Source of the DNA: Planktothrix serta PCC 8927
GTDB lineage: Bacteria > Cyanobacteriota > Cyanobacteriia > Cyanobacteriales > Microcoleaceae
Direction: 5' to 3'
Assembly (NCBI RefSeq): GCF_900010725.2
Contig: NZ_LR734865.1
Span: 1-53,355 of the forward strand
DNA: 53,355 nucleotides
Below, piece by piece: positions 195-44,014 of the stretch. The notes below the pieces were generated by a model. It was not told the DNA's origin, ran no database searches, and saw only the letters and a program-made list of their open reading frames with translations. The position numbers and the translations under genes were made by a program. Each line of letters opens with the position of its first letter. The stretch's first letter is position 1.

Positions 195-1817
195 ATGAAG
201 AAATACGAAATAATTCAACGTTTATTATTAACAGGAATAGGCGGAGTTTTAATGGGGCTCGCTACAGAACCCTGGGGGTTTTGGGGGTTTGCTTGGGTAG
301 CATTAGTTCCTTTATGGGTTAATTTTTTTACCCTTCCTAACCCCGTAGAAACGCGCCAGGGTGCGACTCTAAAATTCCCGTTAATATTAGCGTTTGTTTG
401 GGGAATTTGCTATTACGGAATCGCCTTATTTTGGATTACTGGAATTCACCCGATGACCTGGTTAGGAGTAACTTGGTTAGCCAGTTTAGCTATTGCTTTA
501 TTTGCTTGGAGTTTTATTACCCTTTGGGGCACGGCTTTAGTTATTATTTGGGCGGGATTATTTTTAATTTTATCGAGTAAACTTTCTCAACGAGTCTCTA
601 CAATTTCCCTCGCTTTCACACGAGTTTTAATCGCAACAGCGTTATGGTGTGGCTTAGAATCTTTGTGGAGTTCAGGCGCTTTATGGTGGTCTTCTTTATC
701 CTATACCCAAAGCTTCGGGAATTTAATAATTTTACAATTAGGTCAAATTTCTGGCCCCACAACAATTACCGCCCTATTATTAATTGTGAATGGGTTAATT
801 GCCGAAAGTGTAATCTTAAATCAGAATAAATCTGGAATTTTAGGAATTAATCATCATCATCAAAAATCCTATTTTTTATCCAGTTTAGCGTTATTTATTC
901 TCCTAATAACTCATGGAATCGGATTAACTTTGTATAATCGCCCTTTGCAAAATAACCCCGAACAGGCGTTAAAAATTGGGATTATTCAAGGAAATATCCC
1001 CAATGAAATTAAATTAAATTATTCAGGATATTTAAAAGCTTTAAATGGGTATACGACTGGATATATAACCTTAGCTAATCAAGGCGTAGACCTGGTAGTG
1101 ACGCCCGAAACAGCCCTACCTTTTTTTTGGACTGATGCTAACCTCCGAGAAAATAGTGCTTTTTATCAAGCAATTTTAAACAAAAAAGTTCCGGCTTTAG
1201 TCGGAGGTTTTGCCTCAAAATTAGGAGGATATACAAATAGTTTATTTGCGATAGATGGAGGAGGTGATATTATTAGTGAATATGATAAAGTTAACTTGGT
1301 TCCTTTAGGAGAATTTATTCCTTTTAGTGAAATTTTAGGACAATTTATTCGCCGATTATCTCCTTTAGAAGCCACTTTAATTCATGGCAAACCCGGTCAA
1401 GAATTTCAAACCCCTTTTGGTCAAGTAACGGTAGGAATTTGTTATGATTCTGCGTTTGCGAACCATTTTCGTCGCCAAACTGCCACAGGGGGAGAATTTA
1501 TAATTACGGCGTCTAATGATGCTCACTACTCCTCTACAATGTTAACTCAACATCATGCCCTCGATGTGATGCGAGCGATTGAAAATCATCGTTGGACAAT
1601 TCGAGCAACTAATACAGGATATTCAGCCGTTGTTGACCCCCAGGGGAGAACTCGATGGATTTCAAATCACAATACTTATGAACTCTATGCTGATACAATT
1701 TATCGTAATCAGACTCAAACCCTCTATGTACGTTGGGGAGATTGGCTCATGCCTGTATTATTAATTCTAGGAACAACCGTATTTTTTACTAAAATTGATA
1801 TTTTTCCATCAATTTAA
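195..1817 (+). CDS. lnt: Apolipoprotein N-acyltransferase Lnt
   Basis: Catalyses the last step of lipoprotein maturation, N-acylation of the diacylglyceryl-modified N-terminal cysteine, in the cytoplasmic membrane. The 540-residue length fits the family. The first ~240 residues are several hydrophobic membrane segments, followed by a nitrilase-type domain (about 265-505) and a last membrane segment near the C-terminus. The catalytic Glu-Lys-Cys triad can be placed: E305 in TPETALP, K365 in YDKVNLVPLGEF and C416 in VGICYDS. The gene stands alone; the next gene starts about 110 bases downstream. Residues ~51-60 (VETRQGATL) are encoded by a degenerate copy of a 28-bp palindromic repeat found elsewhere in the window, so this loop may be a repeat insertion. 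Confidence 0.93.
   Translation: MKKYEIIQRLLLTGIGGVLMGLATEPWGFWGFAWVALVPLWVNFFTLPNPVETRQGATLKFPLILAFVWGICYYGIALFWITGIHPMTWLGVTWLASLAIALFAWSFITLWGTALVIIWAGLFLILSSKLSQRVSTISLAFTRVLIATALWCGLESLWSSGALWWSSLSYTQSFGNLIILQLGQISGPTTITALLLIVNGLIAESVILNQNKSGILGINHHHQKSYFLSSLALFILLITHGIGLTLYNRPLQNNPEQALKIGIIQGNIPNEIKLNYSGYLKALNGYTTGYITLANQGVDLVVTPETALPFFWTDANLRENSAFYQAILNKKVPALVGGFASKLGGYTNSLFAIDGGGDIISEYDKVNLVPLGEFIPFSEILGQFIRRLSPLEATLIHGKPGQEFQTPFGQVTVGICYDSAFANHFRRQTATGGEFIITASNDAHYSSTMLTQHHALDVMRAIENHRWTIRATNTGYSAVVDPQGRTRWISNHNTYELYADTIYRNQTQTLYVRWGDWLMPVLLILGTTVFFTKIDIFPSI
345..372. repeat. Degenerate 28-bp palindromic repeat inside lnt
   Basis: The arms GTAGAAACGCGCC and GTGCGACTCTAA are imperfectly complementary. 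Length (28 bp) and outer sequence match the palindromes at 11115-11142 and 20227-20254, which have GTAGAGACG...CGTCTCTAC ends. It lies in the coding region for a loop between early membrane segments of Lnt. Confidence 0.45.
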
Positions 1818-1929
1818 TCACACGCTCTTAATAGTTCGATGTCATCCAAACTTCTCTTGAAAAAGTGTTCAGGAGTTTTTCATTCCCTATTCCCTGCTAT
1901 AACTTTTGATCAACAATTCACAAATAACC

Positions 1930-3051
1930 ATGATCAAGCCTAATTCAATCCTGATTGTGGATGATGAACCGGATGTTTTTGATGTTTTGGAAGGAATTCT
2001 GTTCCGAGAAGGATATCAATTACATTATGCCTCTAATAGTTTTGAGGTATTTAATTTTTTAGCATCTAGTTTACCGGATCTGATTTTATTAGATGTGATG
2101 ATGCCCGATTGTGATGGCATGGATATCTGTCGCCAAATTAAACAAATTCCTGAATTGAATCCGATTCCAATTATTATGATTACGGCACTAAATTGCAAAG
2201 AAACGTTAGCACAATGTTTAGATGTAGGAGCAGAAGATTTTATTGGAAAACCAATGAGTGCGCTAGAAGTTAGAGCCAGAGTTCGTTCAATGCTACGACT
2301 CAAAAAACAGCATGATCAGTTAGAAACAGCCCGTCAAAAGTTAGAACAATTGTTACAATTACGCGAAGATATGGCTTATGCTGTGATTCACGATCTGAGA
2401 AATCCAGTGGTGGCGATTGGATTAGGCTGTGAACTCCTTAGCCTAACAAATCTAACAGAAAAACAAGCCCAAAAAGTGGATCAAATTGCTAGTTCAGGAC
2501 GACAGTTGAACAACCTGATTAATTCCTTGTTATTAATGGCGAAACTAGAATCAGGGAAAGAACTGCTCAATCCTCAACCTGTTAATCTCTCTGTGATGCT
2601 GCAAGCTGTTGTCAATGAATTTGAAGCCCAAACTATAAAAAAGAAAATCCACCTCACCGCTACAATTCCAGAAGCTAAACGGTTAGTAATTGCTGATCCC
2701 GATTTAATCAAGCGGGTACTGGAAAATTTACTGAATAATGCCATTAAATTTTCCCCCTCAAATAGTTGGGTTTCAATGGAAGTTGAATATCCAGTAGACA
2801 CTAACACCGTTAAAGTTCATGTTCGGGATTCAGGAAGGGGAGTTAAAGATGAAATCAAGCAACATATTTTTGAAAAATATGAAATTGGTCAACGCTTTGA
2901 AGGGGTTAATCAAACTGGATTAGGATTAGCCTTTTGTAAAATGGTGATTGATGCTCATCAAGGTTGGCTTTCAATTACAGATAATCAACCCAACGGCGCG
3001 ATTTTTACCCTGGAATTGAAAGCAAAAGATCAGCCCCTTCTTAATTCTTAA
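1930..3051 (+). CDS. Response-regulator/histidine kinase hybrid (REC-HisKA-HATPase)
   Basis: Soluble two-component protein of 373 residues. An N-terminal receiver domain (about 6-122) has the acidic pair DDE, phospho-acceptor D55 in LLLDVMMPD and a conserved lysine in IGKPMS. A short coiled coil leads to HisKA with phospho-acceptor His in AVIHDLRNP, then an HATPase domain with N box (NLLNNAIKFS), DSGRG and GLGLAF glycine boxes. An upstream in-frame TTG at 1906 would add eight residues; ATG 1930 is preferred because the receiver fold starts directly after it. There is no DNA-binding output. The gene ends 11 bases before the giant kinase that follows, so the two are probably co-transcribed, and this protein may relay its phosphate. 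Confidence 0.85.
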   Translation: MIKPNSILIVDDEPDVFDVLEGILFREGYQLHYASNSFEVFNFLASSLPDLILLDVMMPDCDGMDICRQIKQIPELNPIPIIMITALNCKETLAQCLDVGAEDFIGKPMSALEVRARVRSMLRLKKQHDQLETARQKLEQLLQLREDMAYAVIHDLRNPVVAIGLGCELLSLTNLTEKQAQKVDQIASSGRQLNNLINSLLLMAKLESGKELLNPQPVNLSVMLQAVVNEFEAQTIKKKIHLTATIPEAKRLVIADPDLIKRVLENLLNNAIKFSPSNSWVSMEVEYPVDTNTVKVHVRDSGRGVKDEIKQHIFEKYEIGQRFEGVNQTGLGLAFCKMVIDAHQGWLSITDNQPNGAIFTLELKAKDQPLLNS

Positions 3052-3062
3052 TTCTTAAATTT

Positions 3063-6000
3063 ATGTCTAGCGATTCTGATACCCTTTTGGTTTTTCCTCT
3101 ACAAAAAGCCATCACCACTGATCCTCTGATCGTGACGCCAGAAACTCCGGTAATTGAAGCGATCGCCATCCTCAACCAAGCTCAAACTTTCTGTTCCTTA
3201 AGCCTGAATTCCTTAGAAGTTAGTCAGGGAAAAACCTGTTTAATTGTTACTGAAAATAACCGACCTATTGGGATATTAACCCATCGGGATATTGTGCGTT
3301 TAATTGCTCAACGGATCACCCTAGAAGGTCTGACGGTCGCGGAAGTGATGACTCAACCTGTGATCACCCTTGAACAAACTGAATTTACCAATTTGAGTGC
3401 GACTTTAAACTTATTAAACCAGCATAGAATTCGTCATTTACCTCTGGTGGATATAGAGGGGAAATTGGTGGGTTTACTCACCCATCGAGATTTGCGAAAT
3501 TCCCTAGAACCGACGGATTTATTAAAACTAAGAACCATTGAAGAGGTGATGACTTCAACAGTTGTCCAAGCACCCGCCACAATTTCCTTATTAGAACTGA
3601 CTGAATTAATGAGTTCTGCTCACGTTAGTTGTGTGGTTTTAGTTGAGGAAAAAATCTGCAATGGAGATGAATTAAAATTTCCTGTGGGTCTGCTGACTGA
3701 AGGGGATATTCTCAAGTTTCAAGCATTAGGTTTAAGTTGGAATATCGAAGCTCAAACGGTGATGAGTAATCCTCTGTGTTGTCTCCGACCTAATGATACA
3801 TTATTATCGGCTCATCTGTTGATGCAGCAACGCCACATTCATCGAATACCAATTGTAGGTGATCAAGGTGAACTGATCGGAATTATTACTCCTACGAGTA
3901 TTTTACAGGCAATTAACCCGATTGATTTATTACAATTAGTTGATGTATTACAGCAAAAAGTCACTCAATTAGAAGCGGAAAAACTGCAATTACTCCAAAG
4001 TCAAAATATCAAACTTGAAGAAAAAATTCAAAAACGGACAGAAGCGTTAAAACTAGCGAATCAACGATTGCAATCTGAGATCCAAGAACGAAGTTTAATT
4101 GAAGCCAAAATTGCCTTCCAAGCTTCACTTTTAGATCAAGTCCGAAATGCGATTATTGCCACGGACTTAAACGGAAAAATCATCTATTGGAATCAATACG
4201 CAGAAACCTTATATCAGTGGAAAGCGAAAGAAGCCGTCGGAAAAAATGTTATTGATTTTTTTGTTCCCCTGGATTATCAAAATTTAGCAGAAGAAATTGT
4301 TGAGGAAGTGATAAAAAAAGGATATTGGGAAGGAGAATTTACCACCTCTCGTAAAGATGGGAGTACCTTACCGATTCATGTTTTTGATACTTTAATTCGA
4401 GATCAAGCGGGAAATCCAATGGGTTTAATTGGGATTAGTTTTGATATTACTGAACGTAAACAAGCGGAACAAAAATTACAGCAACAGGTACAACGGGAAC
4501 GGCTTTTTTACCAAACGGCTCTCCATATTCGTCAATCTCTGAATTTAACAGATATTCTCAATAATGCAGTGGTACATATTCGCAGTATTCTCAATTGTGA
4601 TCGGGTTGTTGTTTATCAATTTGATCCCCTATTTAATGGCATGATTCGGGCGGAATCTGTTGCTGAAGGTTGGATGTCTAGTTTGGGGATATATTTGGAA
4701 GATACTTGTTTTAAAACCGGAGGTGTTGTCCATTATTTGCAGGGGAAAAAAACGGTTATTTATGATCTGGAAACGGCTGATTTAACGGAATGTCATAAAC
4801 AGCTATTAAATCAATTTGAGGTCAAAGCTAATCTAGTTGTACCCATTATCATTCAACCTCAAGATCGAGAAACTGGGAATTCTCTTTGGGGGTTATTAAT
4901 TGCACATCAATGTTCTGCTCCTCGAAATTGGCATTCCACAGAATTAGAATTATTAGATGAAATTGCTGTTCAACTTTCATTAGGAATTCAACAATCATTA
5001 CTTTATCAAACAGCCCAAACCGAACTTCAGGAACGCCAAAAAGTTGAACAAAAATTAAGACTTCTGAATCAAGAATTAGAAACAAGAATTCTGGATCGAA
5101 CCGCTAAATTAGAACGTCAAGAACGTAAATCTCGTCTATTTGCAGAAATCGCTTTAAAAATTCGTCAATCTTTAGATATCAACCAAATTTTACAAACTAC
5201 TGTCACCGAAGTTCAAAAGATTTTAGATTGCGATCGCCTATTAATTTATCGCGTTTTTTCTAATGGAACAGGACGAGCGATCGCCGAAAGTGTATTACCC
5301 GGATGGCGTTCCATTCTCAATGTTAACTTTCCCGAAGAAGTTTTTCCCCCAGAGTATCAACAACTCTATCGTCATGGAACTGTAAAAGCCATTGCAGATA
5401 TTGATCAAACCTATCAAGAAGTAACACCTTGTTTAGTCGAATTTCTACAGGAATGGCGCGTTAAAGCAAAATTAGTAGTTCCGATTTTACAAAATGATTA
5501 TTTTTGGGGATTTATGATTGCTCATCACTGTACTTGTCCTCGACAATGGACAGAATTTGAAATTGAACTGATGCGAGAAATAGCCGATCAAGTGGGTGTG
5601 GCTTTAGAACAAGCTCAATTAGTAGAAACCATTCGAGAACGAGAACAATTTATTGAAAGGATTGCGGATAATAGCCCGAATATTTTATATATTTATGATT
5701 TAGCGCAAAACCGTACTATTTATAGTAGCCAATCTTTAACCCCAATTCTAGGATATACCACCCTAGAAATATCTGAAATGGGTGATGATTTCTTGACGAT
5801 TTTTCATCCTGATGATCAAGAAACGGTGCGTCAACATCTTCAACAAACCGCCCAACTTAAGGATCGAGAAACTGATTATATTGAGTATCGAATTCAGCAT
5901 CGAAATGGAGAATGGTTATGGTTTTCGAGTCATGGGACTGTTTTTAAACGAGATCAACAAGGTAATACTCAACAAATTTTAGGGGTCGCTCAAAATATTA

Positions 6001-8222
6001 CCGATCGCAAACAAGCCGAATTAGACTTATATCAAAGCCATCAAATTTTAGAAGCCATTAGTTATGCTCAAGCTCAATTTATTACCGATGGAGATTCCCA
6101 TTTACTCTTTGAAAATTTACTATCTTCCGTCTTAAAATTAACTGAAAGTCAGTATGCTTTTATGGGAGAAGTCTTCTCTCGCCAGAATGGGGAAGCTTAT
6201 CTGGAAGAATATTATATGAAAAAACAAGGAAATCCCTATTTAGAGATTCATCCCATGACTCATAGAGTCTGTCACCTAGAACTCGACCCTGGAAAAGGGG
6301 AAAAACAGGCGCAAAATTTTAATATAAAAGGATTGTTTTGCACTGTAATTTTAGCGGGTAAACCTGTGGTTATTAATTCCCATCCTATTAACTCAATATC
6401 CACCGAAAATTTACCTCAAGATTATCTGTCTTTTACAGCATTTTTAGGGATACCCTTTTATACTCATAAGGAATTATTGGGAGTGGTTTGTGTCGCCAAC
6501 CGACCCGGAGGTTATGATCAAAATTTGATTAATTATTTGCAACCTTTCTTAGCCACTTGTAGTAATATTATTGAAGCGGATAGAATTGAACGCTTGCATC
6601 AAAAAGTCGAAGATAATTTAAAACGTCAATTAGCGGCGGTAGAGGCTTCAATCGATGGCATTTCTATTTTAAAAAATGAAGAATATATTTATGTCAACAA
6701 TTCCCACTTAAAACTCTTTGGGTATAGCCATCCTGATGAATTATTGGGTAAAAGTTGGCGAGTTCTCTACACACCGGATGTGGTAGAATGGTTTGAAGAA
6801 AATGTATTTCCCCTTTTAACACAACAAAAATTTTGGCGAGGAGAAACGATTGCCTTAAGAAAAGATGGTACAACATTTAATCAAGAAGTTTCCTTAACAG
6901 TGACAGAAGATGGGGATTATATTTGTGTTTTTCAAGATATTAGTGAACGACAAGCTGCCCTACGAGAACGCAAAAATGCTGAAAATCAACTGCGTCAAAC
7001 CAATGAACAATTAGCGATCGCTAACGCTCAACTCGCCCGTGCATCCCGTCTTAAAGATGAATTTCTAGCGAACATGAGTCATGAACTGCGAACACCCCTC
7101 AACTCAATTTTAGGAATGTCAGAAGTTTTACAAGAAGGAACCTTTGGAGAATTAACTGACCAACAAAATCAAGCTTTAGCAATGATTCACAGAAATGGAA
7201 AACACTTACTCGAACTAATTAATGATATTCTCGATCTCTCCAAAATTGAAGCCGGAAAATTCGACTTAGAACGCTCTCCCGTTTCTGTTAATGAACTCTG
7301 TCAAAACAGTTTAAGCTTTGTCAAACAACAAGCCCATCAAAAAAATATTCGACTAAGTTATCAAATTGAAGATGTTACAGAAGCACTGAATGTTGATGAA
7401 CGTCGAATGCGTCAGGTGTTAATTAATTTACTCAATAATGCGGTAAAATTTACCCCCGAAGGCGGGCGAGTTCGACTCGAAGTTCGAGGAGATCTTCAGG
7501 AACAAACGATTAGTTTTTCTGTAATTGATAATGGCATTGGGATTACACCCGAAGATCAATCTCGACTGTTTCAAGCCTTTATTCAAATTGATAGCCGTTT
7601 ATCTCGACGTTATGAAGGCACTGGTTTAGGATTAGTGTTAGTAAAAAAACTGGTGGAAATGCACGGGGGTACAGTGAAGATTGACAGTCAATTGGGAAAA
7701 GGCAGTTGCTTTACGCTCACGCTTCCTTGGACTCCTCTATCTTGGGGAGAATATCCAATATTAACTCCAACAGAACTTTTAGATAAATCTCCTGCTTCTC
7801 GAAGTGCTTCTAAGGGCTTAAAACGTCCTTTAATTCTATTAGCTGAAGATAATTCTGATAATATTCATACCTTGCTTAATTATTTACAAGCAAAAGGGTT
7901 TGATGTAGAAGTGGCTCGAAATGGGATTGAAGCGGTTCAAAAAGCTCGTGATTTGCATCCGCAGGTGATTTTAATGGATATTTCTATGCCCGAAATGGAC
8001 GGTTTAGAAGCCACACGCCAAATTCGGGCTGATCCACAACTGGCGACCCTTCCCATCATTGCATTAACAGCTTTAGCCATGCAGGGTGATCGAGAACAAT
8101 GTTTAGCGGCTGGCGTTAATGAATATCTTCCTAAACCCGTCCAACTTCGACAATTAATTCAGTTAATTCAAAGTCTAATCTTAGAAAAAAAAGCCAAGGA
8201 ATTAGTCAATGAACAGAAATAA
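3063..8222 (+). CDS. Multi-sensor hybrid histidine kinase with CBS, PAS, GAF and candidate cyanobacteriochrome domain
   Basis: Large cytoplasmic sensor of 1719 residues with no membrane segment. Domain order: four CBS motifs (about 8-285; adenine-nucleotide sensing in this family), coiled coil (290-345), PAS (345-470), GAF1 (485-655), GAF2 (690-855), PAS (860-985), GAF3 (1000-1175), PAS (1185-1300), HisKA with H1340 in MSHELRTP, HATPase (N box NLLNNAVKFTPE, GTGLGL), and C-terminal receiver with D1639 in LMDISMPEMDG. GAF1 has a DTCF motif (C549) and a Cys-His pair (C577-H578) followed by FEVKANLVVPI. These are the two bilin-linking cysteines of DXCF-type cyanobacteriochromes. GAF2 keeps a Cys at the canonical position (C790) but with Leu instead of His. 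The gene overlaps the binding-protein gene downstream by 14 bases, so translation is likely coupled. Light and energy-state sensing is an inference. Confidence 0.88.
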   Translation: MSSDSDTLLVFPLQKAITTDPLIVTPETPVIEAIAILNQAQTFCSLSLNSLEVSQGKTCLIVTENNRPIGILTHRDIVRLIAQRITLEGLTVAEVMTQPVITLEQTEFTNLSATLNLLNQHRIRHLPLVDIEGKLVGLLTHRDLRNSLEPTDLLKLRTIEEVMTSTVVQAPATISLLELTELMSSAHVSCVVLVEEKICNGDELKFPVGLLTEGDILKFQALGLSWNIEAQTVMSNPLCCLRPNDTLLSAHLLMQQRHIHRIPIVGDQGELIGIITPTSILQAINPIDLLQLVDVLQQKVTQLEAEKLQLLQSQNIKLEEKIQKRTEALKLANQRLQSEIQERSLIEAKIAFQASLLDQVRNAIIATDLNGKIIYWNQYAETLYQWKAKEAVGKNVIDFFVPLDYQNLAEEIVEEVIKKGYWEGEFTTSRKDGSTLPIHVFDTLIRDQAGNPMGLIGISFDITERKQAEQKLQQQVQRERLFYQTALHIRQSLNLTDILNNAVVHIRSILNCDRVVVYQFDPLFNGMIRAESVAEGWMSSLGIYLEDTCFKTGGVVHYLQGKKTVIYDLETADLTECHKQLLNQFEVKANLVVPIIIQPQDRETGNSLWGLLIAHQCSAPRNWHSTELELLDEIAVQLSLGIQQSLLYQTAQTELQERQKVEQKLRLLNQELETRILDRTAKLERQERKSRLFAEIALKIRQSLDINQILQTTVTEVQKILDCDRLLIYRVFSNGTGRAIAESVLPGWRSILNVNFPEEVFPPEYQQLYRHGTVKAIADIDQTYQEVTPCLVEFLQEWRVKAKLVVPILQNDYFWGFMIAHHCTCPRQWTEFEIELMREIADQVGVALEQAQLVETIREREQFIERIADNSPNILYIYDLAQNRTIYSSQSLTPILGYTTLEISEMGDDFLTIFHPDDQETVRQHLQQTAQLKDRETDYIEYRIQHRNGEWLWFSSHGTVFKRDQQGNTQQILGVAQNITDRKQAELDLYQSHQILEAISYAQAQFITDGDSHLLFENLLSSVLKLTESQYAFMGEVFSRQNGEAYLEEYYMKKQGNPYLEIHPMTHRVCHLELDPGKGEKQAQNFNIKGLFCTVILAGKPVVINSHPINSISTENLPQDYLSFTAFLGIPFYTHKELLGVVCVANRPGGYDQNLINYLQPFLATCSNIIEADRIERLHQKVEDNLKRQLAAVEASIDGISILKNEEYIYVNNSHLKLFGYSHPDELLGKSWRVLYTPDVVEWFEENVFPLLTQQKFWRGETIALRKDGTTFNQEVSLTVTEDGDYICVFQDISERQAALRERKNAENQLRQTNEQLAIANAQLARASRLKDEFLANMSHELRTPLNSILGMSEVLQEGTFGELTDQQNQALAMIHRNGKHLLELINDILDLSKIEAGKFDLERSPVSVNELCQNSLSFVKQQAHQKNIRLSYQIEDVTEALNVDERRMRQVLINLLNNAVKFTPEGGRVRLEVRGDLQEQTISFSVIDNGIGITPEDQSRLFQAFIQIDSRLSRRYEGTGLGLVLVKKLVEMHGGTVKIDSQLGKGSCFTLTLPWTPLSWGEYPILTPTELLDKSPASRSASKGLKRPLILLAEDNSDNIHTLLNYLQAKGFDVEVARNGIEAVQKARDLHPQVILMDISMPEMDGLEATRQIRADPQLATLPIIALTALAMQGDREQCLAAGVNEYLPKPVQLRQLIQLIQSLILEKKAKELVNEQK

Positions 8223-9222
8223 AATTCACGCGGAAAAAATGCAAAAGCAAATCTATTTATTTTTAATCGGGATCTTGATCTGTATGAGTTTAGGAATATT
8301 AGTCAGTTGTTTTCAACAACCGACAACACCCCTTCTCGTCGGTAGTAACAATTGGCCCGGTTTCGCGCCTTTATATTTAGCCGAGCAGTTAGGTTATTAT
8401 AAAAACAGTTCTATTAAAATTGTAGATTATCCTTCCACAACTGAAATTAATCGTGCTATTCGCAGTGGGGATTTACAAGTCGGAGGAATCAGTCTTGATG
8501 AAACATTACTATTAGCCGAAACTTTTCCAGAAATTCGGCTAATTCTGCTGATTGATTTATCTAATGGTGCTGATGTTATCCTGGGAAAACCGCAGTTAAA
8601 AACTCTATCCGATATTCAAGGAAAAAAAGTCGGGGTAGAAAATACAGCATTAGGGGCTTATATGCTGAGTCGGGGACTTGATCAAGCGGGACTTTCGGTG
8701 CAAGATATTATCATTGTTTCTTTAGGGTACTCTGAACATGAATCAGCGTTTAAAGAGGGTGAAATTGATGCCGTTGTTACCTTTGAACCTACTCGTTCTA
8801 AATTAATCGAAACTGGGGCTAACGTTTTATTTGACAGTAGTAAAATTCCGGGTGAAATTATTGATGTATTGGTGGTGCGTCAAGATATCTTAAAGACTCA
8901 GCCTAAAGATTTAGAACAATTAGTTCGCGGTTGGTTTATGGCCTTAGATTATCTCAAAAATCAACCGGAAAGTGCGGCTCAAATTATGGCAAAACGGGGA
9001 GGAATCAAGCCAACGGAATTTTTATCTTCTCTGAAACTGCTAAAATTCTTTACTCCCACAGAGAATCAAAAACTCCTCTCTCAAACTGATCCGAGGCTAG
9101 TTTATTCTTCTCAAGAATTAGCAAAATTGATGAAAGAAAAGAAACTACTCAACTCGAATATTAGATTTTCATCTTTGTTGGATGATCGTTTTGTGAATCA
9201 ACTTTCTAAATCCCAGCAATGA
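8209..9222 (+). CDS. Orphan ABC-type substrate-binding lipoprotein (NMT1/SsuA-like)
   Basis: Periplasmic binding protein of 337 residues. A hydrophobic signal segment (about 13-33) ends in a lipobox LVSC, so the mature protein should be a lipoprotein. The body has the NMT1/THI5/SsuA-like pattern: NNWPGFAPLYLAEQLG near the N-terminus, GKKVGVE, and EIDAVVTFEP. This family binds sulfonates, taurine, nitrate or pyrimidine precursors; the ligand cannot be told here. No permease or ATPase gene is adjacent. The gene overlaps the upstream hybrid kinase by 14 bases and the downstream membrane kinase by four (ATGA), so it is likely a sensory subunit that presents ligand to the periplasmic domain of that kinase. 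That role is an inference from context. Confidence 0.8.
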   Translation: MNRNKIHAEKMQKQIYLFLIGILICMSLGILVSCFQQPTTPLLVGSNNWPGFAPLYLAEQLGYYKNSSIKIVDYPSTTEINRAIRSGDLQVGGISLDETLLLAETFPEIRLILLIDLSNGADVILGKPQLKTLSDIQGKKVGVENTALGAYMLSRGLDQAGLSVQDIIIVSLGYSEHESAFKEGEIDAVVTFEPTRSKLIETGANVLFDSSKIPGEIIDVLVVRQDILKTQPKDLEQLVRGWFMALDYLKNQPESAAQIMAKRGGIKPTEFLSSLKLLKFFTPTENQKLLSQTDPRLVYSSQELAKLMKEKKLLNSNIRFSSLLDDRFVNQLSKSQQ

Positions 9223-10943
9223 AACGTTTAGCTTTTACTTTACCCCTACGATTTGCTATTCCCAGTTTATTACTGTTGATGAGTAGTGGACTGGGTTTAT
9301 ATGGGTTCATAACAGAAGTTAAGAAAACCTATGAATATCAGGAACTCGCAATTTTTCAACAGGCGGATTTTTATAGTGAAAAAACCGTTGACCTGTTGGA
9401 ATTTATTTTCCGACGGTTCACAAGTTATAATAGCCGTTTAGACACTGCTAAGTTAGTAATTGGTGAAACGGGAGAACAACCGAATTTAGAATTATCTGCT
9501 TTCCTAGATGAAGATTCTACCATTATCCTATCAACCCAATATAATTTACAAAAGCAACCCATACTTGATACGGATTTTGCCTATCTTTACCCTAAAATTC
9601 AACAGGTTAAAAAGACTCAAACTCAACAGATAGTTTGGTCTGCAAATCGGAAATCTTTAACGGTAACTACTCCTGTAATTCTCCCCCCTAAACCCAATGA
9701 ATTACGTTCTCAAGTGGGGATATTTCTATCGATTTATGACCTAACTCAATTGAAAAAACAAGCCTATCAAGAGGCTTTAGATCGATCGCTACAAATGAAT
9801 ATAGTAGTGTTAGGTGTTTGTCTATTGGTGTGGTTATTTTTTGAATTGAGTTTAACGAAACGAGTCTCTCGCTTAGTATTGGTTAGTCAAAATTTAGCAC
9901 AGGGAAATTTAAGCGATCGCAGTCGTTTACCCGGTTCCGATGAACTCGCCCAAATTTCTATAGCCTTTGATCAAATGGCGGATCAAATTGAATTAGACAC
10001 CTATAGTTTACAACAATCTCAAATCGAATTGCAACAAAAAGCCACAGAATTAGAAAAAGCTCTGACTCAATTAAAACAGACTCAAGCTCAATTAGTTCAA
10101 AGTGAAAAAATGTCTAGTTTAGGACAATTAGTAGCGGGAATTGCCCATGAAATTAATAATCCAGTCAGTTTTATTTTTGGCAATATCACTTATGCTAAAG
10201 AATATACAGATAGCTTACTCAATTTAATTTCACTCTATCAAACCTGTTATCCTCAAGCCGTGCCCGAAATTCAAGCCGAAATTGATGATTTAGATTTAGA
10301 GTTTCTAGAATCTGATCTCCAGAAAATCTTTAATTCTATGCGGGTCGGAAGTCAAAGAATAGCTGATATTGTACAATCCTTACGTTCATTTTCTCGGTTA
10401 GATGAAGCCGATCTCAAAACCGTTAATTTGCATGAAAATATTGACAATACCCTGATGATTTTAAAACATCGCTTCAAAGCCCAATCTTCTCGACCGGAAA
10501 TTAAAATTAGCAAAAATTATGGGAATATTCCCTTAATTAAATGTTATGCAGGTCAACTGAATCAAGTGTTTATGAATATTTTAATCAATGCTATTGATGC
10601 GTTGGAAATGAATCAAAAGACTGGGTATTTCAAAGCCTCAAACCAAACGCCTCCTCAAATTTCTATTCATACAGAAACCCTCACCGACTCCCAACAAAAA
10701 ACCTGGGTACAAATTCAGATTTCTGATAACGGTTTAGGAATGTCTGAAACCGTGAGAACCCGAATTTTTGAACCCTTTTTTACCACTAAACCCGTCGGTC
10801 AAGGTACCGGAATGGGTTTAGCGATTAGTTATCAAATTGTGGTAGAAAAACATCAAGGTCAACTCCTCTGTACCTCTCAAAACGGAGAAGGGAGTACCTT
10901 TGTAATTACCTTACCTTTATCCCTCGAACCCCCTACAGCGTAG
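9219..10943 (+). CDS. Membrane HAMP-domain sensor histidine kinase
   Basis: Integral membrane kinase of 574 residues. TM1 lies at about 8-28, a periplasmic sensor region at about 29-190 and TM2 at about 191-211. These are followed by HAMP (212-265), a Gln-rich coiled coil (265-295), HisKA with phospho-acceptor His in AGIAHEINNPVSF, and HATPase (N box NILINAIDALE, then DNGLGM and GTGMGLAIS). Its start codon overlaps the stop of the binding-lipoprotein gene (ATGA), consistent with a ligand-presenting pair. The kinase core resembles that of the minus-strand REC-kinase at 13965-15470 (shared GIAHEINNPV and LRSF motifs), so the two are paralogues. The 3' end overlaps the convergent exoprotein gene by 11 bases. 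Confidence 0.87.
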   Translation: MKRLAFTLPLRFAIPSLLLLMSSGLGLYGFITEVKKTYEYQELAIFQQADFYSEKTVDLLEFIFRRFTSYNSRLDTAKLVIGETGEQPNLELSAFLDEDSTIILSTQYNLQKQPILDTDFAYLYPKIQQVKKTQTQQIVWSANRKSLTVTTPVILPPKPNELRSQVGIFLSIYDLTQLKKQAYQEALDRSLQMNIVVLGVCLLVWLFFELSLTKRVSRLVLVSQNLAQGNLSDRSRLPGSDELAQISIAFDQMADQIELDTYSLQQSQIELQQKATELEKALTQLKQTQAQLVQSEKMSSLGQLVAGIAHEINNPVSFIFGNITYAKEYTDSLLNLISLYQTCYPQAVPEIQAEIDDLDLEFLESDLQKIFNSMRVGSQRIADIVQSLRSFSRLDEADLKTVNLHENIDNTLMILKHRFKAQSSRPEIKISKNYGNIPLIKCYAGQLNQVFMNILINAIDALEMNQKTGYFKASNQTPPQISIHTETLTDSQQKTWVQIQISDNGLGMSETVRTRIFEPFFTTKPVGQGTGMGLAISYQIVVEKHQGQLLCTSQNGEGSTFVITLPLSLEPPTA

Positions 10944-23260: not shown

Positions 23261-25096
23261 ATGGCTGATTTTTTTCTCAAGACCATTTGGTGGATACCGT
23301 GCTACCCATTAATCGGAGCTTTGTTATCCGCCCTCTGGTTTCCGTCTATTATTCGACGCACTGGCCCCCGTCCCGCCGGATACGTCAATATCATCACCAC
23401 CTTATTCGCCTTTTTGCATGGGTTATTCGCCCTCACGGAAATTTGGGGCCATCCTCCCCAACGGTTGATTATTCCTTGGTTTAGTATCGTTGACCTCAAT
23501 TTATCCATACCCCTAGAAATCTCCGTTATCACCGTTGGCGCCACCTTAGTCATTACCGGGTTAAATTTATTAGCCCAAATTTACGCCGTCGGTTACATGG
23601 AAATGGACTGGGGATGGGCACGATTCTATTCCCTTTTAGCTTTATTTGAAGCGGGGTTATGTGGATTAGTGCTGTGTAACTCCCTATTCTACAGTTACAT
23701 TATTCTGGAAATTCTCACCTTGGGAACCTATTTATTAGTAGGTTTGTGGTTTAATCAACCCTTAGTTGTCACCGGGGCGAGAGATGCTTTTTTAACCAAA
23801 CGGGTTGGAGATTTATTCCTATTAATGGGAGTAGTTGCCCTATTTCCTCTCGCCGGAACTTGGGATTTTACAGAATTAGCTCAATGGTCACAAACCGCCC
23901 AAGTTGACCCCAAAGTTGCCACCTTATTAGGGTTAGCATTATTAGCAGGGCCACTGGGAAAATGTGCCCAATTTCCCCTGCATTTATGGTTAGATGAAGC
24001 AATGGAAGGCCCCCTTCCTAGTACGATTTTACGCAATTCTGTTGTCGTTGCTTGTGGGGCTTGGGTGTTAGTCAAAATGGAGCCCGTTATTGCTTTATCT
24101 CCTTTTGTGATGTCAACTGCGGTATTTATTGGGTTAGCAACATCAGTGGGAGCGAGTTGTATTGCTATTGCTCAAATTGATATTAAACGCGCCCTTTCCT
24201 ATTCGGTGAGTGCCTATATGGGTATCACCTTTATAGCAGTAGGAACGGGACAAACCCAAGCGGCTTTATCTTTGTTATTAACTTATGCTTTTCCCATGGC
24301 TTTATTAGTCATGACCACTGGAGGAATTATTAGTAATAATGTCACCCAAGATTTAACCCAATATGGCGGGTTATGGTCACGACGTCCGATTTCGGGATTG
24401 TGTTTTTTAGTAGGAATGGCTGCGTTAATTGCAGTTCCTCCCTTTGGAGGATTTTGGACAATATTAGAGTTAGCAGAAACCCTCTGGAATACTCAACCCG
24501 CCATTGGATTTTGCTTGTTTTTAGTCAATGGTTTAACAGCTTTTAGTTTAACTCGTGAATTTGGATTGATTTTTGCCGGAAAACCCAAACAAATGACCAC
24601 CCGTTCCCCGGAAGTGTTATGGGCGATGGTATTACCGATGACAATTTTAGCGGGATTTTGTTTGCATATTCCTTTATTATTAAAACAGTGGGATTTGTTA
24701 CCCCAAGGGCAACAAATTAATCTCACCGTTGCTGGATTATTAACAGTTTCAACTCTGGCCGGATGTGGATTGAGTGGATTAATTTATCTCAATAGCAATT
24801 GGCTAAAACCGGTTAAACTTCCCTCCCAAGAATTACAAGACTTTTTTGCTTACGATTTTTACACGGCAAAATTGTATCGAGTCACGATTATTTTTGTAGT
24901 AGGACTCATCTCTAATATCATGTATTGGGTTGACCGCTATATCGTGGATGGCTTTGTAAATTTAGTGGGACTTGTAACGGTTTTTAGTGGGCAAAGTTTG
25001 AAATATAATGTTTCCGGTCAAACCCAATTTTATGCCCTGACGATTATTGTCGGAGTCACTTTATTATTAGGGTTCTTTTCCCTAAATCTGTTTTAA
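23261..25096 (+). CDS. ndhF3: NDH-1 subunit NdhF3 (CO2-uptake type)
   Basis: Polytopic membrane subunit of 611 residues, with the antiporter-like core of the NDH-1L NdhF family, including GPLGKCAQFPLHLWLDEAMEGPLP and DIKRALSYSVSAYMG. In cyanobacteria NdhF3 pairs with NdhD3 and CupA in the NDH-1MS complex, which couples electron transport to hydration of CO2 to bicarbonate at the thylakoid. The F3 rather than F4 assignment rests on the cupA-type hydration protein and fasciclin gene downstream, so it is partly inferred. Unusually, two carbonic anhydrase genes follow it instead of ndhD3 directly. Confidence 0.85.
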   Translation: MADFFLKTIWWIPCYPLIGALLSALWFPSIIRRTGPRPAGYVNIITTLFAFLHGLFALTEIWGHPPQRLIIPWFSIVDLNLSIPLEISVITVGATLVITGLNLLAQIYAVGYMEMDWGWARFYSLLALFEAGLCGLVLCNSLFYSYIILEILTLGTYLLVGLWFNQPLVVTGARDAFLTKRVGDLFLLMGVVALFPLAGTWDFTELAQWSQTAQVDPKVATLLGLALLAGPLGKCAQFPLHLWLDEAMEGPLPSTILRNSVVVACGAWVLVKMEPVIALSPFVMSTAVFIGLATSVGASCIAIAQIDIKRALSYSVSAYMGITFIAVGTGQTQAALSLLLTYAFPMALLVMTTGGIISNNVTQDLTQYGGLWSRRPISGLCFLVGMAALIAVPPFGGFWTILELAETLWNTQPAIGFCLFLVNGLTAFSLTREFGLIFAGKPKQMTTRSPEVLWAMVLPMTILAGFCLHIPLLLKQWDLLPQGQQINLTVAGLLTVSTLAGCGLSGLIYLNSNWLKPVKLPSQELQDFFAYDFYTAKLYRVTIIFVVGLISNIMYWVDRYIVDGFVNLVGLVTVFSGQSLKYNVSGQTQFYALTIIVGVTLLLGFFSLNLF

Positions 25097-25149
25097 AAAT
25101 AGCAGTCTTTTGCTGGCTGTTTAAACCTTGAATTAAGTGTGAGGAAATT

Positions 25150-25854
25150 ATGAGCGGAATTCAAAACAATCTCAACGTCTCTCGTCGGAATTTATTAAAA
25201 TTTGGGGCTGTGGCTGCGGGAACTGCCGCTTTAACCGTCGGTTTAGGAACAAAAGTTGATTGGTTAAACACTAAACCTGCGATTGCTCAGAATAATATTA
25301 CCCCTAATGAAGCCTTAAACCAACTGTTAGAAGGAAACAAGCGGTTTATCGAAAATAAACGCAAAACTCCGAATCAAACTATGGGACGAATTCAAGAAGT
25401 TGCTCAAGGACAAACCCCCTTTGCAGCTATTCTCAGTTGTGCAGATTCACGGGTTCCTTCGGAGATTATTTTTGATCAAGGTTTCGGAGATTTATTCGTG
25501 GTTAGAAATGCGGGAAATATTGCTACTCCTGAAGAAATTGGAAGCTTGGAATTTGGAACGTTAGTGTTAGGAGCAAAAGTCCTAATGGTAATTGGGCATA
25601 AAAATTGTGGAGCCGTGCAAGCCACCATTGATGGTAATGCCGTCCCCGGTCAAATTGGCAGTATTTTAGACGCAATTAAACCTGCTATTAAGCCCAATCA
25701 AACCTTAGAAGAAAGCATCATTTCTAATGTAAAATTAGGAATGACTCGTTTACAAGCTTCTCCCGTTATTTCCCAATTAATCAAAGACGGTAAATTAAAA
25801 ATAGCCGGGGGTTACTATGACTTAGATACGGGACGGGTAAAAGTGGTTGCTTAA
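25150..25854 (+). CDS. Beta-class carbonic anhydrase with Tat signal (copy 1)
   Basis: Protein of 234 residues. The N-terminus has a twin-arginine motif (SRRNLLKFG), a hydrophobic stretch (about 18-34) and a probable cleavage site after AIA (about 47), so it should be exported by Tat. The catalytic domain has the beta-CA zinc ligands C97 (in SCADSRVP, with D99-R101 dyad), H150 and C153 (GHKNCGA). It interconverts CO2 and bicarbonate. It lies 53 bases after ndhF3 and is highly similar to the next gene, so a tandem duplication is likely. The similarity to EcaB-type periplasmic or thylakoid-lumen enzymes is an inference. Confidence 0.9.
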   Translation: MSGIQNNLNVSRRNLLKFGAVAAGTAALTVGLGTKVDWLNTKPAIAQNNITPNEALNQLLEGNKRFIENKRKTPNQTMGRIQEVAQGQTPFAAILSCADSRVPSEIIFDQGFGDLFVVRNAGNIATPEEIGSLEFGTLVLGAKVLMVIGHKNCGAVQATIDGNAVPGQIGSILDAIKPAIKPNQTLEESIISNVKLGMTRLQASPVISQLIKDGKLKIAGGYYDLDTGRVKVVA

Positions 25855-25942
25855 AGCTGCTTAAAGCAAGTTTATAATTAATTCAATTGAATCAGAGATA
25901 AGCTTGCTTTTTTGTGATATTCCATCAGCTAGGAAGGACAAC

Positions 25943-26665
25943 ATGACCCCAGACTACAATACACCCAATTATACCCGCAGACATTTATTACAATATGGAG
26001 TTTGCATTGTGGGAACAGCCTTATTAACGGCTGGAATTACAACAAAAGTTTTAGACCGAGAAAAAAAGAAAACTCTCGGAGAAACTTCCAGTTGTGAACC
26101 CCCAGAAATCACCCCAGAAAAAGCATTAGAAACCTTAATGTTAGGAAATCAACGGTTTATGGAAAATAAACAGAAACATCCTAACCAAAATCGGCAACGG
26201 ATGAAAGAAGTTACCGCAGGTCAAAAACCTTTTGCCGCTATTTTAGGGTGTGCTGACTCCAGAGTACCAACCGAGATTATTTTTGATCAAGGTTTAGGCG
26301 ATATTTTTGTAGTTCGTAATGCGGGAAATGTTGTTACTCCTGAAGAAATGGGAAGCTTAGAATTTGGAGTTTTAGAATTAGGAATTAAAACAATTATGAT
26401 TCTAGGTCATGAAAAATGTGGAGCCATTAAAGCGACCCTGGAAGGAAATGCGGTTCCCGGTCAAATTGGCAGTATTATTGATGCCATTAAACCTGCCATC
26501 AAAGGTAAACCCACTTGGGAAGAAGCAGTGATTGCTAATGTCAAACTAGAACTAAAACGGTTAAATTCTTCTCCGGTTATTTCTCAATTAATTGCCGATG
26601 AAAAATTAAAAGTTGTCGGTGGTTTCTATGAATTAGAGACCGGAGAAGTCAAACTGATTGCCTAA
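25943..26665 (+). CDS. Beta-class carbonic anhydrase with Tat-like signal (copy 2)
   Basis: Protein of 240 residues from ATG 25943, preceded by an AGGAAGGA ribosome-binding site; an in-frame TTG at 25904 is less likely. The N-terminus has TRRHLLQYG and a hydrophobic segment (about 16-33) without a clear AxA cleavage site, so it may stay membrane-anchored. Zinc ligands are C103 (CADSRVP, D105-R107), H156 and C159 (GHEKCGA). Across the catalytic domain it is roughly three-quarters identical to copy 1 by eye. The signal regions have diverged, which hints at different final locations. A long inverted repeat follows the stop. Confidence 0.9.
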   Translation: MTPDYNTPNYTRRHLLQYGVCIVGTALLTAGITTKVLDREKKKTLGETSSCEPPEITPEKALETLMLGNQRFMENKQKHPNQNRQRMKEVTAGQKPFAAILGCADSRVPTEIIFDQGLGDIFVVRNAGNVVTPEEMGSLEFGVLELGIKTIMILGHEKCGAIKATLEGNAVPGQIGSIIDAIKPAIKGKPTWEEAVIANVKLELKRLNSSPVISQLIADEKLKVVGGFYELETGEVKLIA

Positions 26666-26675
26666 ACCTATTCTG

Positions 26676-26731
26676 GCAATAGAAATGATATTCCCAGAAT
26701 AGCTCGGATTCTGATAAATCATTTCTATTGC
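26676..26731 (+). terminator. Long stem-loop after the carbonic anhydrase pair
   Basis: Outer arms GCAATAGAAATGAT (26676-26689) and ATCATTTCTATTGC (26718-26731) are perfectly complementary over 14 bp. Inner arms CAGAAT (26695-26700) and ATTCTG (26708-26713) add a second stem. It could end or attenuate transcription between the carbonic anhydrases and ndhD3, or protect an mRNA end. There is no strong T run. Confidence 0.6.
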
Positions 26732-26866
26732 TATTATCCAAACTTTAAAACTCATAATTCCACTGTTTTTAAATTTGGTAAGTTATGATCAATAAAGTTT
26801 GGAATCTGAATTTAAAACCCAGCCTTGGCTTGACTTAAATATCCCTGATTTTAATCCCCTAAGCTT

Positions 26867-28360
26867 ATGTTGAGTGCTTTAATTATTATCCCAATTTTGG
26901 GAGTTTTGTTAATAGGACTATTGCCTAAACAATTTTCAACCCAGCAAGTTCGTTCCATTGCCTTAGTTATTACCAGTATCATTTTAGTTTGGACAGTAAA
27001 ACTTGCCTTTGATTTTGATTTAACCAATCCAAATTTTCAGCTACAAGAATATTTGAATTGGATTCCGCAATTAGGATTATCTTACAGTTTAGGCATAGAC
27101 GGTTTATCCTTTCCCTTAATTGGATTAAGTGGTTTATTAACCTTAATTGCCATTGCCAGCAGTCATGGAAATATTCACCGCCCTCGTTTTTATTACTCCA
27201 TGATTTTGTTAGTCAATGCAGGCATAGCTGGAGCCTTTTTATCCGAGAATTTACTGCTTTTCGTTCTATTTTATGAACTCGAACTGATTCCCGTATATCT
27301 TTTAATTAGTATTTGGGGCAGTGAAAAACGCGCCTATGCGGGGATGAAGTTTCTGATTTATACTGCCCTTTCAGGGATTCTGATTTTAGCCGGATTTTTA
27401 GGCATGGCTTGGCTCAGTGAAGCCGGAAGTTTTGATTATTCTGCCATTCAAACCCAAAACTTTGGGTTAAATACTCAGTTAATTTTACTCACGGTTTTAC
27501 TGTTAGGATTTGGCATCAAAATTCCCTTAGTTCCCTTGCATACTTGGTTGCCCGATGCCTATGTTGAATCTTCTCCCCCCGTGACGATTTTATTAGGAGG
27601 AATTCTAGCGAAATTAGGAGCCTATGGTTTAATTCGGTTTGGTTTACAACTGTTTCCTGAAGCTTGGCATATTGTTAGCCCTGGACTGGCAACAATTGGC
27701 GTAATTAGTGTGTTATATGGAGCCTTAACTGCCATTGCTCAACAGGATATTAAACGCATGGTAGCTTATAGTTCTATTGGTCACATGGGCTATATTTTAG
27801 TTGCAGCAGCAGCAGCTAATGAACTGAGTTTAATTGGGGCAATTGCTCAAATGATTGCTCACGGTTTAATCCTTGCCATTCTATTTCAATTAGTCGGCGT
27901 TGTGGAAGAAAAAGTTGGAACCCGTGACTTAAATATTCTCAATGGTTTAATGAACCCCGTTCGCGGTTTACCCCTCACTAGCGCCTTATTAATTATGGCA
28001 GGAATGGCGAGTGCTGGTATTCCCGGTTTAGTCGGATTTGTTGCAGAGTTTCCTGTCTTCCAAGGTACATTTTCAGTCTTCCCCATTCAAAGTTTATTGT
28101 GTATTATTGCATCCGGTTTAACAGCCGTTTATTTTGTAATTCTCCTCAACCGTACCTGTTTTGGTAAACTCGATAATAGCTTGGCTTATTATCCAAAAGT
28201 CACTTTGTCAGAACAAGCTCCCGCCTTAATTTTAGCCGCATTAATTTTCATTCTCGGTATACAACCGACTTGGTTATTTCAATGGATGGAGCCCACTGCA
28301 AAATCGATGGTTATTGCCTTAAATAACCCTGTTCCTACCCAAATTGCAATTAAACAATAA
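26867..28360 (+). CDS. ndhD3: NDH-1 subunit NdhD3 (CO2-uptake type)
   Basis: Polytopic membrane protein of 497 residues, with the NuoM/NdhD pattern: LLFVLFYELELIPVYLLISIWG with the conserved Glu, IPLVPLHTWLPDAYVESSPP with the conserved His/Asp, and DIKRMVAYSSIGHMG. With NdhF3 it forms the distal membrane arm of the CO2-uptake NDH-1 complex. It is separated from ndhF3 by the carbonic anhydrase pair and a long stem-loop, so it may have its own promoter in the 201-base gap. CupA follows 123 bases downstream. Confidence 0.87.
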   Translation: MLSALIIIPILGVLLIGLLPKQFSTQQVRSIALVITSIILVWTVKLAFDFDLTNPNFQLQEYLNWIPQLGLSYSLGIDGLSFPLIGLSGLLTLIAIASSHGNIHRPRFYYSMILLVNAGIAGAFLSENLLLFVLFYELELIPVYLLISIWGSEKRAYAGMKFLIYTALSGILILAGFLGMAWLSEAGSFDYSAIQTQNFGLNTQLILLTVLLLGFGIKIPLVPLHTWLPDAYVESSPPVTILLGGILAKLGAYGLIRFGLQLFPEAWHIVSPGLATIGVISVLYGALTAIAQQDIKRMVAYSSIGHMGYILVAAAAANELSLIGAIAQMIAHGLILAILFQLVGVVEEKVGTRDLNILNGLMNPVRGLPLTSALLIMAGMASAGIPGLVGFVAEFPVFQGTFSVFPIQSLLCIIASGLTAVYFVILLNRTCFGKLDNSLAYYPKVTLSEQAPALILAALIFILGIQPTWLFQWMEPTAKSMVIALNNPVPTQIAIKQ

Positions 28361-28376
28361 ACCCCTAAAATATCCA

Positions 28377-28443
28377 AGAAACCGGGTTTCTAGCTTAAAT
28401 TTTCAGATGAAATTCAGGATTTGTCTTGAGAAACCCGGTTTCT
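28377..28443. repeat. Paired AGAAACC palindromes between ndhD3 and cupA
   Basis: Two 15-bp near-perfect palindromes, AGAAACCGGGTTTCT (28377-28391) and AGAAACCCGGTTTCT (28429-28443), are reverse complements of each other. Each can form its own small hairpin, or both can pair into one long stem. They resemble dispersed palindromic repeats and may attenuate read-through into cupA. Confidence 0.75.
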
Positions 28444-28483
28444 AGTTCCCCACTTTAACAACAATTAAAACCAGGAAAAAATC

Positions 28484-29776
28484 ATGACAACTGCAACTTT
28501 ATCTCAAACAAAATTACCCCCCTCAACCCATGAATTTTCCGAGATTATTCACCGCTTAGAAGCGGGGGGTGCAATGTTACCCGATACCCCAGAAAACCTA
28601 ATGCAAATTATCGGGATTTATAAAGCTTATGCTGTACCGATGGATTTCTATTGGCGGGATTTACTGTACATTGCTGAACAGGTATTTTTAAATCCTTTAC
28701 CCTTTTTAAAATACTTCATTCCTCAAGAATATTTAGACCTGCATAATCATTATGCGGGAGATGATGCTGATTTAAGAATATGGCGAGGAGAAGCAACTGC
28801 ACACCCGGAATTATTAGCCTTTATAGAAAAGGGTGAAACGAAAAAAATGCCTAAATTATTGCATCATTTATGGCATGATCGGGTTAATATGGAATTTGCA
28901 GAAGCTTGTATGCAGGCGATGTTTTGGCATCGAGATATGGGAGGATTATTTGATCCTTATTTAGATACGGATGAATATAAAGCTAATGCAGATCGAGCGA
29001 TTAAAGCTTATTTTAAGAAAAATCCGATGATGATGGGATTATATAAACTATTCCCAGATTTATTCATAGAACAGGTAAGAATGATGTCCTATTATAGCAA
29101 TTTAGGACTGTTTTGGGAAGTCATGGCTCCAGTGTTTTTTGAAATGAGTGATCTCTATGATGAAGGCAAAATTGCTAGTGTTCCTGAAGCGATGAATTTT
29201 CTGGTTAATGGGATTTTTGCGATCGCAGGTCGTCCGATTTATCATCACGTTTATATTGATGGGGAATGTTATGAAATTATCCCCAAATCTAAAGGGTTTA
29301 TGTGGTTATATGAGGCGGCATTACCTTACGTTGAAGCGGTGTTTTATCGCACTTCTCCCTTCCGAGGAACAAAATCCTATAATGCTCAAGCAAAGCAAGT
29401 TCCTGATGATCAAAAAGAATTCCATTATGGCATTCTTTATGCTGATATTTTCCCCGTTGGGACTGCGGGAATTCCCCCAACATTATTAATGCAAGATATG
29501 TTACATTTCTTACCTCCCTATTTAGTGGAATATTACCAACAATATTGTCGAGGTGAGGATGATATGTTGATTCAGTTAGCGAATAGTTTCCAACGCTCAA
29601 TGTATTGTGTAACTTCTGCGGTCATTCAAGCGTTACGCACGGCTTTACTGTATCCTTTAGATGATCAAAATCCTAAACATTTGATCGCAAATCGTCAATT
29701 TTTTGAAGCTCAATTAGATCGGTTTAAACGTCCTGAAGCACGATTAAGAGATATTCAACGCTCTGATTATCGTTAA
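28484..29776 (+). CDS. cupA: CO2 hydration protein CupA (ChpY)
   Basis: Soluble CO2-hydration subunit of 430 residues with the Cup/Chp family pattern throughout, e.g. MPKLLHHLWHDRVNMEFAEACMQAMFWHRDMGG and DIFPVGTAGIPPTLLMQDMLHFLPPYL. It docks on the NdhD3/NdhF3 arm and hydrates CO2 to bicarbonate, probably with a zinc site; several His, Asp and Glu residues are conserved-looking but ligands were not assigned. The length and the fasciclin neighbour favour CupA over the shorter constitutive CupB, but the distinction needs a phylogeny. It is followed by a strong hairpin. Confidence 0.85.
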   Translation: MTTATLSQTKLPPSTHEFSEIIHRLEAGGAMLPDTPENLMQIIGIYKAYAVPMDFYWRDLLYIAEQVFLNPLPFLKYFIPQEYLDLHNHYAGDDADLRIWRGEATAHPELLAFIEKGETKKMPKLLHHLWHDRVNMEFAEACMQAMFWHRDMGGLFDPYLDTDEYKANADRAIKAYFKKNPMMMGLYKLFPDLFIEQVRMMSYYSNLGLFWEVMAPVFFEMSDLYDEGKIASVPEAMNFLVNGIFAIAGRPIYHHVYIDGECYEIIPKSKGFMWLYEAALPYVEAVFYRTSPFRGTKSYNAQAKQVPDDQKEFHYGILYADIFPVGTAGIPPTLLMQDMLHFLPPYLVEYYQQYCRGEDDMLIQLANSFQRSMYCVTSAVIQALRTALLYPLDDQNPKHLIANRQFFEAQLDRFKRPEARLRDIQRSDYR

Positions 29777-42069: not shown

Positions 42070-42119
42070 GATTGACGAAATCGGCAACGGGTATGGAGCC
42101 AAAAAAAGCACAGTGATCT

Positions 42120-42146
42120 GCTAAAGTCATCAAAGACTCCTTTAGC
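42120..42146 (+). terminator. Hairpin downstream of gvpA
   Basis: Arms GCTAAAG (42120-42126) and CTTTAGC (42140-42146) around 13 bases. It may partly terminate transcription after gvpA so that shell protein is made in excess over GvpC. No T run follows, so it could instead stabilise the gvpA mRNA end. Confidence 0.45.
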
Positions 42147-43994: not shown

Positions 43995-44014
43995 AAAGTA
44001 TCGGTTTGGAAATT

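Follow-up and report, generated by a model that had tools for sequence, protein, structure and literature searches.

Domains of the DXCF class of cyanobacteriochromes are typically blue/green sensors (PMC11284453). In TePixJ, the linkage cysteines are described as C494, joined to bilin C10, and C522, joined to the A-ring, while H498 and W499 hold the B-ring propionate (PMC6955287). For a second DXCF protein, Tlr0924, the green state is placed at 532 nm (PMC4067208). Green/red sensing is represented by RcaE, reported at 532/661 nm (PMC4937213), and by CcaS, reported at 536/672 nm; in both proteins the His that adjoins the Cys is Leu, and for both a PAS/GAF core is named (PMC9415938).

In the window (the whole stretch of DNA that was analysed, 53,355 nucleotides from Planktothrix serta PCC 8927) we found an open reading frame at 3063..8222 whose Pfam domains identify a hybrid histidine kinase of 1719 aa; this frame, its features and its cluster neighbours described below lie on the + strand. 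The domain order by Pfam is CBS x4 - PAS - GAF1 - GAF2 - PAS - GAF3 - PAS - HisKA - HATPase - REC, the CBS domains, here four stretches, having been named in an earlier note on this DNA, made from the letters alone. Pfam places three GAF stretches (the best at residues 705-848, and a GAF_2 match at 1015-1171), HisKA at 1331-1398, a HATPase and REC at 1591-1702, and it finds no membrane domain in the protein. The phospho-acceptors are H1340 (within SHELRT) and D1639 (within MDISMP). Each of these parts is of a known kind; the point of interest is their combination, as the kinase probably joins one photoswitch of the blue/green and one of the green/red kind, behind the four CBS domains. Mixed multi-GAF cyanobacteriochromes are already known, and SesA (Tlr0924) may carry CBS domains too. 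A kinase with CBS domains, a DXCF GAF and an RcaE-type GAF is not named in the titles and abstract openings of the open-licence matches listed, which is weak evidence of absence, subscription papers lying mostly outside that set.

There is almost no doubt that GAF1 is a bilin-binding domain of the DXCF class, judging from both cysteines, their spacing, the alignment and the conservation. The earlier note had put the domain at 4515-5020 (residues 485-652), which is the right place, but better limits are residues 481-660 (4503..5042). As had been proposed, the motif scan finds D547-T-C549-F (the DTCF motif, residues 547-550, 4701..4712) and C577-H578, the canonical bilin cysteine and the His next to it (4791..4796). 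When GAF1 is aligned to cyanobacteriochrome GAFs, C549 (4707-4709), from which a bond to bilin C10 is expected, and C577 fall on the DPCF and ECH cysteines of TePixJ, with the same 28-residue distance as C494/C522 and without a gap between the cysteines; the VKANLVVP stretch, which had been called typical, matches TePixJ (PDB 3vv4) column by column. In the PDB, GAF1 matches PPHK best (6oap, 1.6e-38); TePixJ (3vv4, 4.8e-31) and other cyanobacteriochrome chains also match. The D.CF motif occurs once in the whole kinase, at 547-550, and we rejected a chance origin: by composition we expect ∼0.034 D.CF per protein and 1e-5 for the full D.CF-26x-CH pattern, and in 20,000 shuffles of the kinase the full pattern appeared 0 times (D.CF alone 644 times).

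Both cysteines, and the D-x-C-F form with them, are kept in all seven orthologs (own included) and in all three paralogs. The residue after the canonical cysteine changes from His to Tyr in two of the seven orthologs and two of the three paralogs, and this change may alter the colour or the chromophore. This His/Tyr alternation within the genus (L051-L056), along with the loss of GAF3 in three orthologs, is possibly a sign of retuning between species. As for GAF3 itself (residues 1015-1171, PF13185), which is missing from 3/7 orthologs, we rejected it as a third photosensor because the bilin-pocket sequence is missing after C1070-H1071.

A domain of this class is expected by default to sense blue/green, and for GAF1 we keep this expectation. 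An alternative, which we regard as rather unlikely, is that the DXCF domain GAF1 has a colour pair other than blue/green, on the teal, yellow or orange side, that would arise from retained phycocyanobilin or from a looser bond of the second cysteine, the remainder of the kinase working as in the preferred reading. The equivalents of TePixJ D492, C494, F495, C522, H523 and N535 are all present in GAF1 (D547, C549, F550, C577, H578 and N590), so that the core DXCF residues speak against this alternative, but H498, W499 and Q526 are replaced by G553, G554 and L581. The GAF1 pocket thus differs from that of TePixJ, and the Gly-Gly at the propionate contacts favours another colour pair, as does the CH/CY variation across the orthologs. 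Furthermore, colours vary within the DXCF class, to which DpxA belongs. SesB is described as blue/teal (PMC8846402) and DpxA as teal/yellow (PMC4937213). On the other side, the 'Tyr/Leu' tuning position, found by the same offset as TePixJ L527, is L582, and Leu is given as the common state there, found in most of that DXCF lineage (PMC7504144).

By itself, a DXCF domain is ordinary in this genome, not a rarity, and is of little importance alone. A search of the own genome listed 45 matches, from which 30 loci were read, and these contain D-x-C-F in at least 8 GAF rows, 7 of which also have the canonical-Cys pattern. We built a tree of 124 rows (117 GAFs and 7 PDB rows) from 144 distinct GAF stretches, of which 27 had been dropped at <150 aa or <100 bits. 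In this tree GAF1 and TePixJ share one fork with weak support (81/50), and D-x-C-F rows are scattered over several clades.

The second GAF domain looks like an RcaE/CcaS-type domain and is a putative green/red sensor. GAF2 spans residues 692-862 (5136..5648). It has the canonical cysteine, C790 (5430-5432), Leu (L791) in place of His and no DXCF, exactly as the earlier note stated; what failed was the implication that GAF2 is the lesser domain for this reason, since Cys-Leu is the RcaE/CcaS pattern and the domain is RcaE-type by match, clade and triad. GAF2 is closest in the PDB to 8k9o (5.1e-58), followed by 7ckv (RcaE, 8.5e-52). GAF2 falls within the 20-row clade of RcaE (97/99), nested in a 40-row, mostly Cys-Leu clade (96/95). 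A narrower 15-row grouping, named once the tree was known, is absent from the free tree, yet it is not rejected (p-AU 0.19, an optimistic value for that reason). Leu directly follows the canonical cysteine in 7/7 orthologs, and the presumed protochromic triad E759 (5337-5339), L791 (5433-5435) and K803 (5469-5471), which lies at -31/+1/+13 from C790, is likewise kept in 7/7. We take these residues to correspond to RcaE Glu217, Leu249 and Lys261 and to share their roles; the spacing (32 and 12) fits exactly. The Lys at +13 accompanies the Cys-Leu pattern: in 17 further loci drawn from the GAF1-GAF2 pair search (see below), with rows obtained from 16, this Lys is present in all 13 Cys-Leu GAFs, while in 18 Cys-His/Tyr GAFs the residue is Asn in 16, His in 1 and Lys in 1. 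Since GAFs at three own-genome loci (L004, L009 and L017) are also Cys-Leu with Lys at +13, GAF2 is not the sole RcaE-like GAF of its genome.

Could GAF2 nevertheless have drifted away from bilin binding, leaving GAF1 as the sole working photosensor? We consider this improbable. The lack of a His after the Cys and of a DXCF motif would fit such drift, and the family does drift, as in three of three paralogs (on contig 68 of G000, in G050 and in G053) the GAF2 counterpart has replaced both the Glu and the Leu and kept the Lys. However, the Cys-Leu pair is normal for RcaE and CcaS (PMC9415938), and the full triad in 7/7 orthologs, the RcaE match and the position in the RcaE clade contradict a degenerate domain. 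Moreover, GAF2 is at least as close to its orthologs (81-91% identity) as GAF1 is (73-89%), so there is no sign of decay. The own-genome paralog (L057, contig 68, 2578-7722) has four CBS domains, a DXCF GAF 59% identical to GAF1, the RcaE-like second GAF with the changed Glu and Leu positions, and a HisKA_2 kinase; REC was unmatched in it.

The kinase is the third gene of a five-gene cluster. It is preceded by a homologue of apolipoprotein N-acyltransferase (lnt, 195..1817; PF20154, PF00795) and, directly upstream, by a response regulator-histidine kinase of 381 aa (1906..3051; PF00072, PF00512, PF02518). It is followed by an NMT1/THI5-like substrate-binding protein (8209..9222; PF09084, PF13379), whose gene overlaps that of the kinase by 14 bases and whose N-terminus looks like a lipoprotein signal, and by a HAMP-type sensor histidine kinase (9219..10943; PF00672, PF00512, PF02518). 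Orthologs of the kinase are present in seven genomes (own, G047, G048 and G050-G053) and missing from 3 of the 10 genus genomes (own included), one of the three being 73% complete. By tblastn against 16-kb stretches, the first four genes are found together near the ortholog in 6/6 other ortholog-bearing genomes and the whole cluster in 5/6, the last gene being near full length in those five; in G052 its match is partial (54%) and lies at the end of the 16-kb stretch, and in G047 other ORFs are interposed within the cluster. A scan of further genome contigs found 3 loci, one of which (L048) is the G052 record again, and no relative was found among viral contigs. The lipoprotein-like binding protein and the HAMP kinase (8209-10943) stay beside the photoreceptor kinase and possibly supply its pathway with a ligand signal from the periplasm.

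The own genome contains PcyA and two heme oxygenases, so a bilin supply is present. It also carries pebA, pebB, cpeB and cpeA, and this, together with the RcaE type of GAF2, would be expected if the kinase were the RcaE- or CcaS-like phycoerythrin regulator of the genus, acting in chromatic acclimation. We give little credence to this reading. Three bilin reductase genes occur only in the own genome among the seven that bear the ortholog; the other six have one each and presumably lack PebA and PebB, a statement that follows from these counts, as only the own genes were typed. The kinase is therefore not tied to phycoerythrin. The genomes without the ortholog have three bilin reductases (G046), two over the cut-off and a fragment (G049) and one (G045), so that the presence of the ortholog does not follow the bilin reductase count, and we rejected phycoerythrin control as its conserved role. 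In addition, none of the five clustered genes encodes a DNA-binding response regulator by Pfam, and the whole protein differs in architecture from the RcaE/CcaS regulators of chromatic acclimation. Least probable of all is that the GAF1 cysteine pair serves redox sensing more than colour sensing: two close cysteines could in principle oxidise, but these stand at both bilin-linking columns amid conserved bilin-pocket sequence.

We then asked whether the pairing of a DXCF with a Cys-Leu GAF extends beyond the genus. The GAF1-GAF2 pair search covered 388 genomes of the class at E <= 1e-62, with four candidates per genome scored and loci reaching 1.5 kb either side of the match, and gave matches in at least 35 of the 388 genomes, own included. 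Among 29 new loci (L060-L088), six carry, within one frame, a DXCF GAF that precedes a Cys-Leu GAF (L064, where another GAF lies between, L065, L066, L067, L069 and L078). In L080 the order is reversed, with Cys-Leu before DXCF, and in the other 22 loci the two features are not seen in separate GAFs. Three genomes of a single genus account for L065-L067, whose full proteins (L134, L135 and L125) have CBS, HisKA and REC; in L145 and L127, the complete proteins of L069 and L078, CBS had no match. L143, which belongs to the same family as the window, combines CBS domains, three GAFs (DXCF first, Cys-Leu last) and a kinase, and has no REC; its Cys-Leu GAF groups as the sister of GAF2 (96/78), and its DXCF GAF is distant from GAF1. 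A tree that forced the GAFs of L065-L067 to join the GAF1 group, counted with its paralogs, was rejected at p-AU 0.0015, and one that forced them to join the GAF2 group, counted with six sisters, at p-AU 7e-8; these values are optimistic because the groups were picked after seeing the tree. As the L065-L067 GAFs belong to other lineages than GAF1 and GAF2, the pairing of a DXCF with a green/red domain has probably been assembled more than once, or the domains have been exchanged. Outside these pairs, L071 has at 1510-2031 (-) a Cys-Leu GAF with a D-x-C-F motif of its own (DECF), possibly a dual-Cys version of the green/red lineage.

Taken as a whole, the reading that we favour, and consider likely, is that two bilin photoswitches of different class stand in tandem in one hybrid kinase. 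The earlier claim that the kinase is a blue/green sensor would then hold for GAF1, through its DXCF motif, but would be incomplete for the whole protein, to which GAF2 adds a probable green/red response. GAF1 would bind phycocyanobilin through C577 and probably convert it to phycoviolobilin; in the dark state a second thioether between C549 and bilin C10 would give a blue-absorbing form, and blue light would break the C549 bond and lead to a green-absorbing state. GAF2 would bind phycocyanobilin through C790 and switch between green and red by a change of protonation under E759, L791 and K803. With both domains working as predicted, the blue/green and green/red switches of one kinase would share the green band, and the way in which multi-GAF kinases combine colours would become testable. 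Green light should drive them in opposite directions, GAF1 from 15E to 15Z and GAF2 from 15Z to 15E, blue should act on GAF1 and red on GAF2, and the kinase could thereby read green against blue and against red. If so, autophosphorylation of H1340 and then transfer to D1639 of REC would be set jointly by the colour signal and by a nucleotide signal that the CBS domains supply, the CBS ligand and the direction of this control being, like the colours, predictions from sequence.

A wider reading, which we offer tentatively, is that a DXCF domain followed by a green/red domain behind CBS is a recurring, independently assembled module that weighs green against blue and red together with the adenylate state. 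It would be a comparator of colours in one kinase, here in a cyanobacterium that is probably planktonic because gas vesicle genes are present. For such a host, a green-rich depth would be informative if the comparator is real.

The gas vesicle genes lie at 41881-46706 of the window, with two PF00741 matches (41881-41997 and 46413-46529). An AAA_5 protein (gvpN-like, 45157-46350) precedes the second match, and a TnpB/IS605 OrfB-type gene (42397-43977) separates the first gvp gene from the others. Directly after the gas vesicle gene, at 46786-48722, follow an AAA_15 ATPase and a DUF4435-like protein (below the Pfam cut-off). This pair matches the AriA and AriB models of PARIS defence, AriB weakly (8e-8), and for the ATPase the PtuA models score slightly above AriA. 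The stretch 23261-29776, which encodes a ChpXY CO2 hydration protein and two NDH subunits of the proton-antiporter type, has the look of a CO2-uptake NDH-1 operon. No RNA families or tRNAs were found in the window, and the promoter and terminator scans gave counts near the shuffled expectation.

How does the kinase compare with the known systems? GAF1 resembles the TePixJ GAF (PDB 3vv4, 4glq) in D-x-C-F and C-H at 28 residues, Asn at +13 and VxANLVVP, while its loop before the GLLIAHQCS strand is 7 residues longer; the TePixJ entry is that of a methyl-accepting chemotaxis protein, whereas the carrier of GAF1 is a hybrid kinase. PPHK, named 'dual sensor histidine kinase' in the PDB, likewise combines two sensor domains if this name is taken at its word, and gives the best GAF1 match, but its matching GAF has DQYF and lacks the second Cys. 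L125, L134, L135 and L143 are similar to the kinase in having CBS, HisKA and a DXCF GAF that precedes a Cys-Leu GAF, with REC in the first three; in these three the GAFs are of other lineages, and L143 has the extra GAF and no REC. RcaE and CcaS contain a single green/red GAF within a PAS-GAF kinase. GAF2 is like the GAF of RcaE (PDB 7ckv, 8k9o) and of CcaS in its Cys-Leu, Glu at -31 and Lys at +13, and shares a clade with RcaE, but it comes after a DXCF GAF, behind CBS domains and in a hybrid kinase. The Fremyella pair of RcaE (green/red) and DpxA (teal/yellow) is also similar, as it joins a green/red with a shorter-wavelength sensor; there, two separate receptors are described as acting on phycoerythrin (PMC4937213), whereas here both classes lie in one polypeptide that is not tied to phycoerythrin. 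If both domains work, a single polypeptide would hold what Fremyella splits over two receptors.
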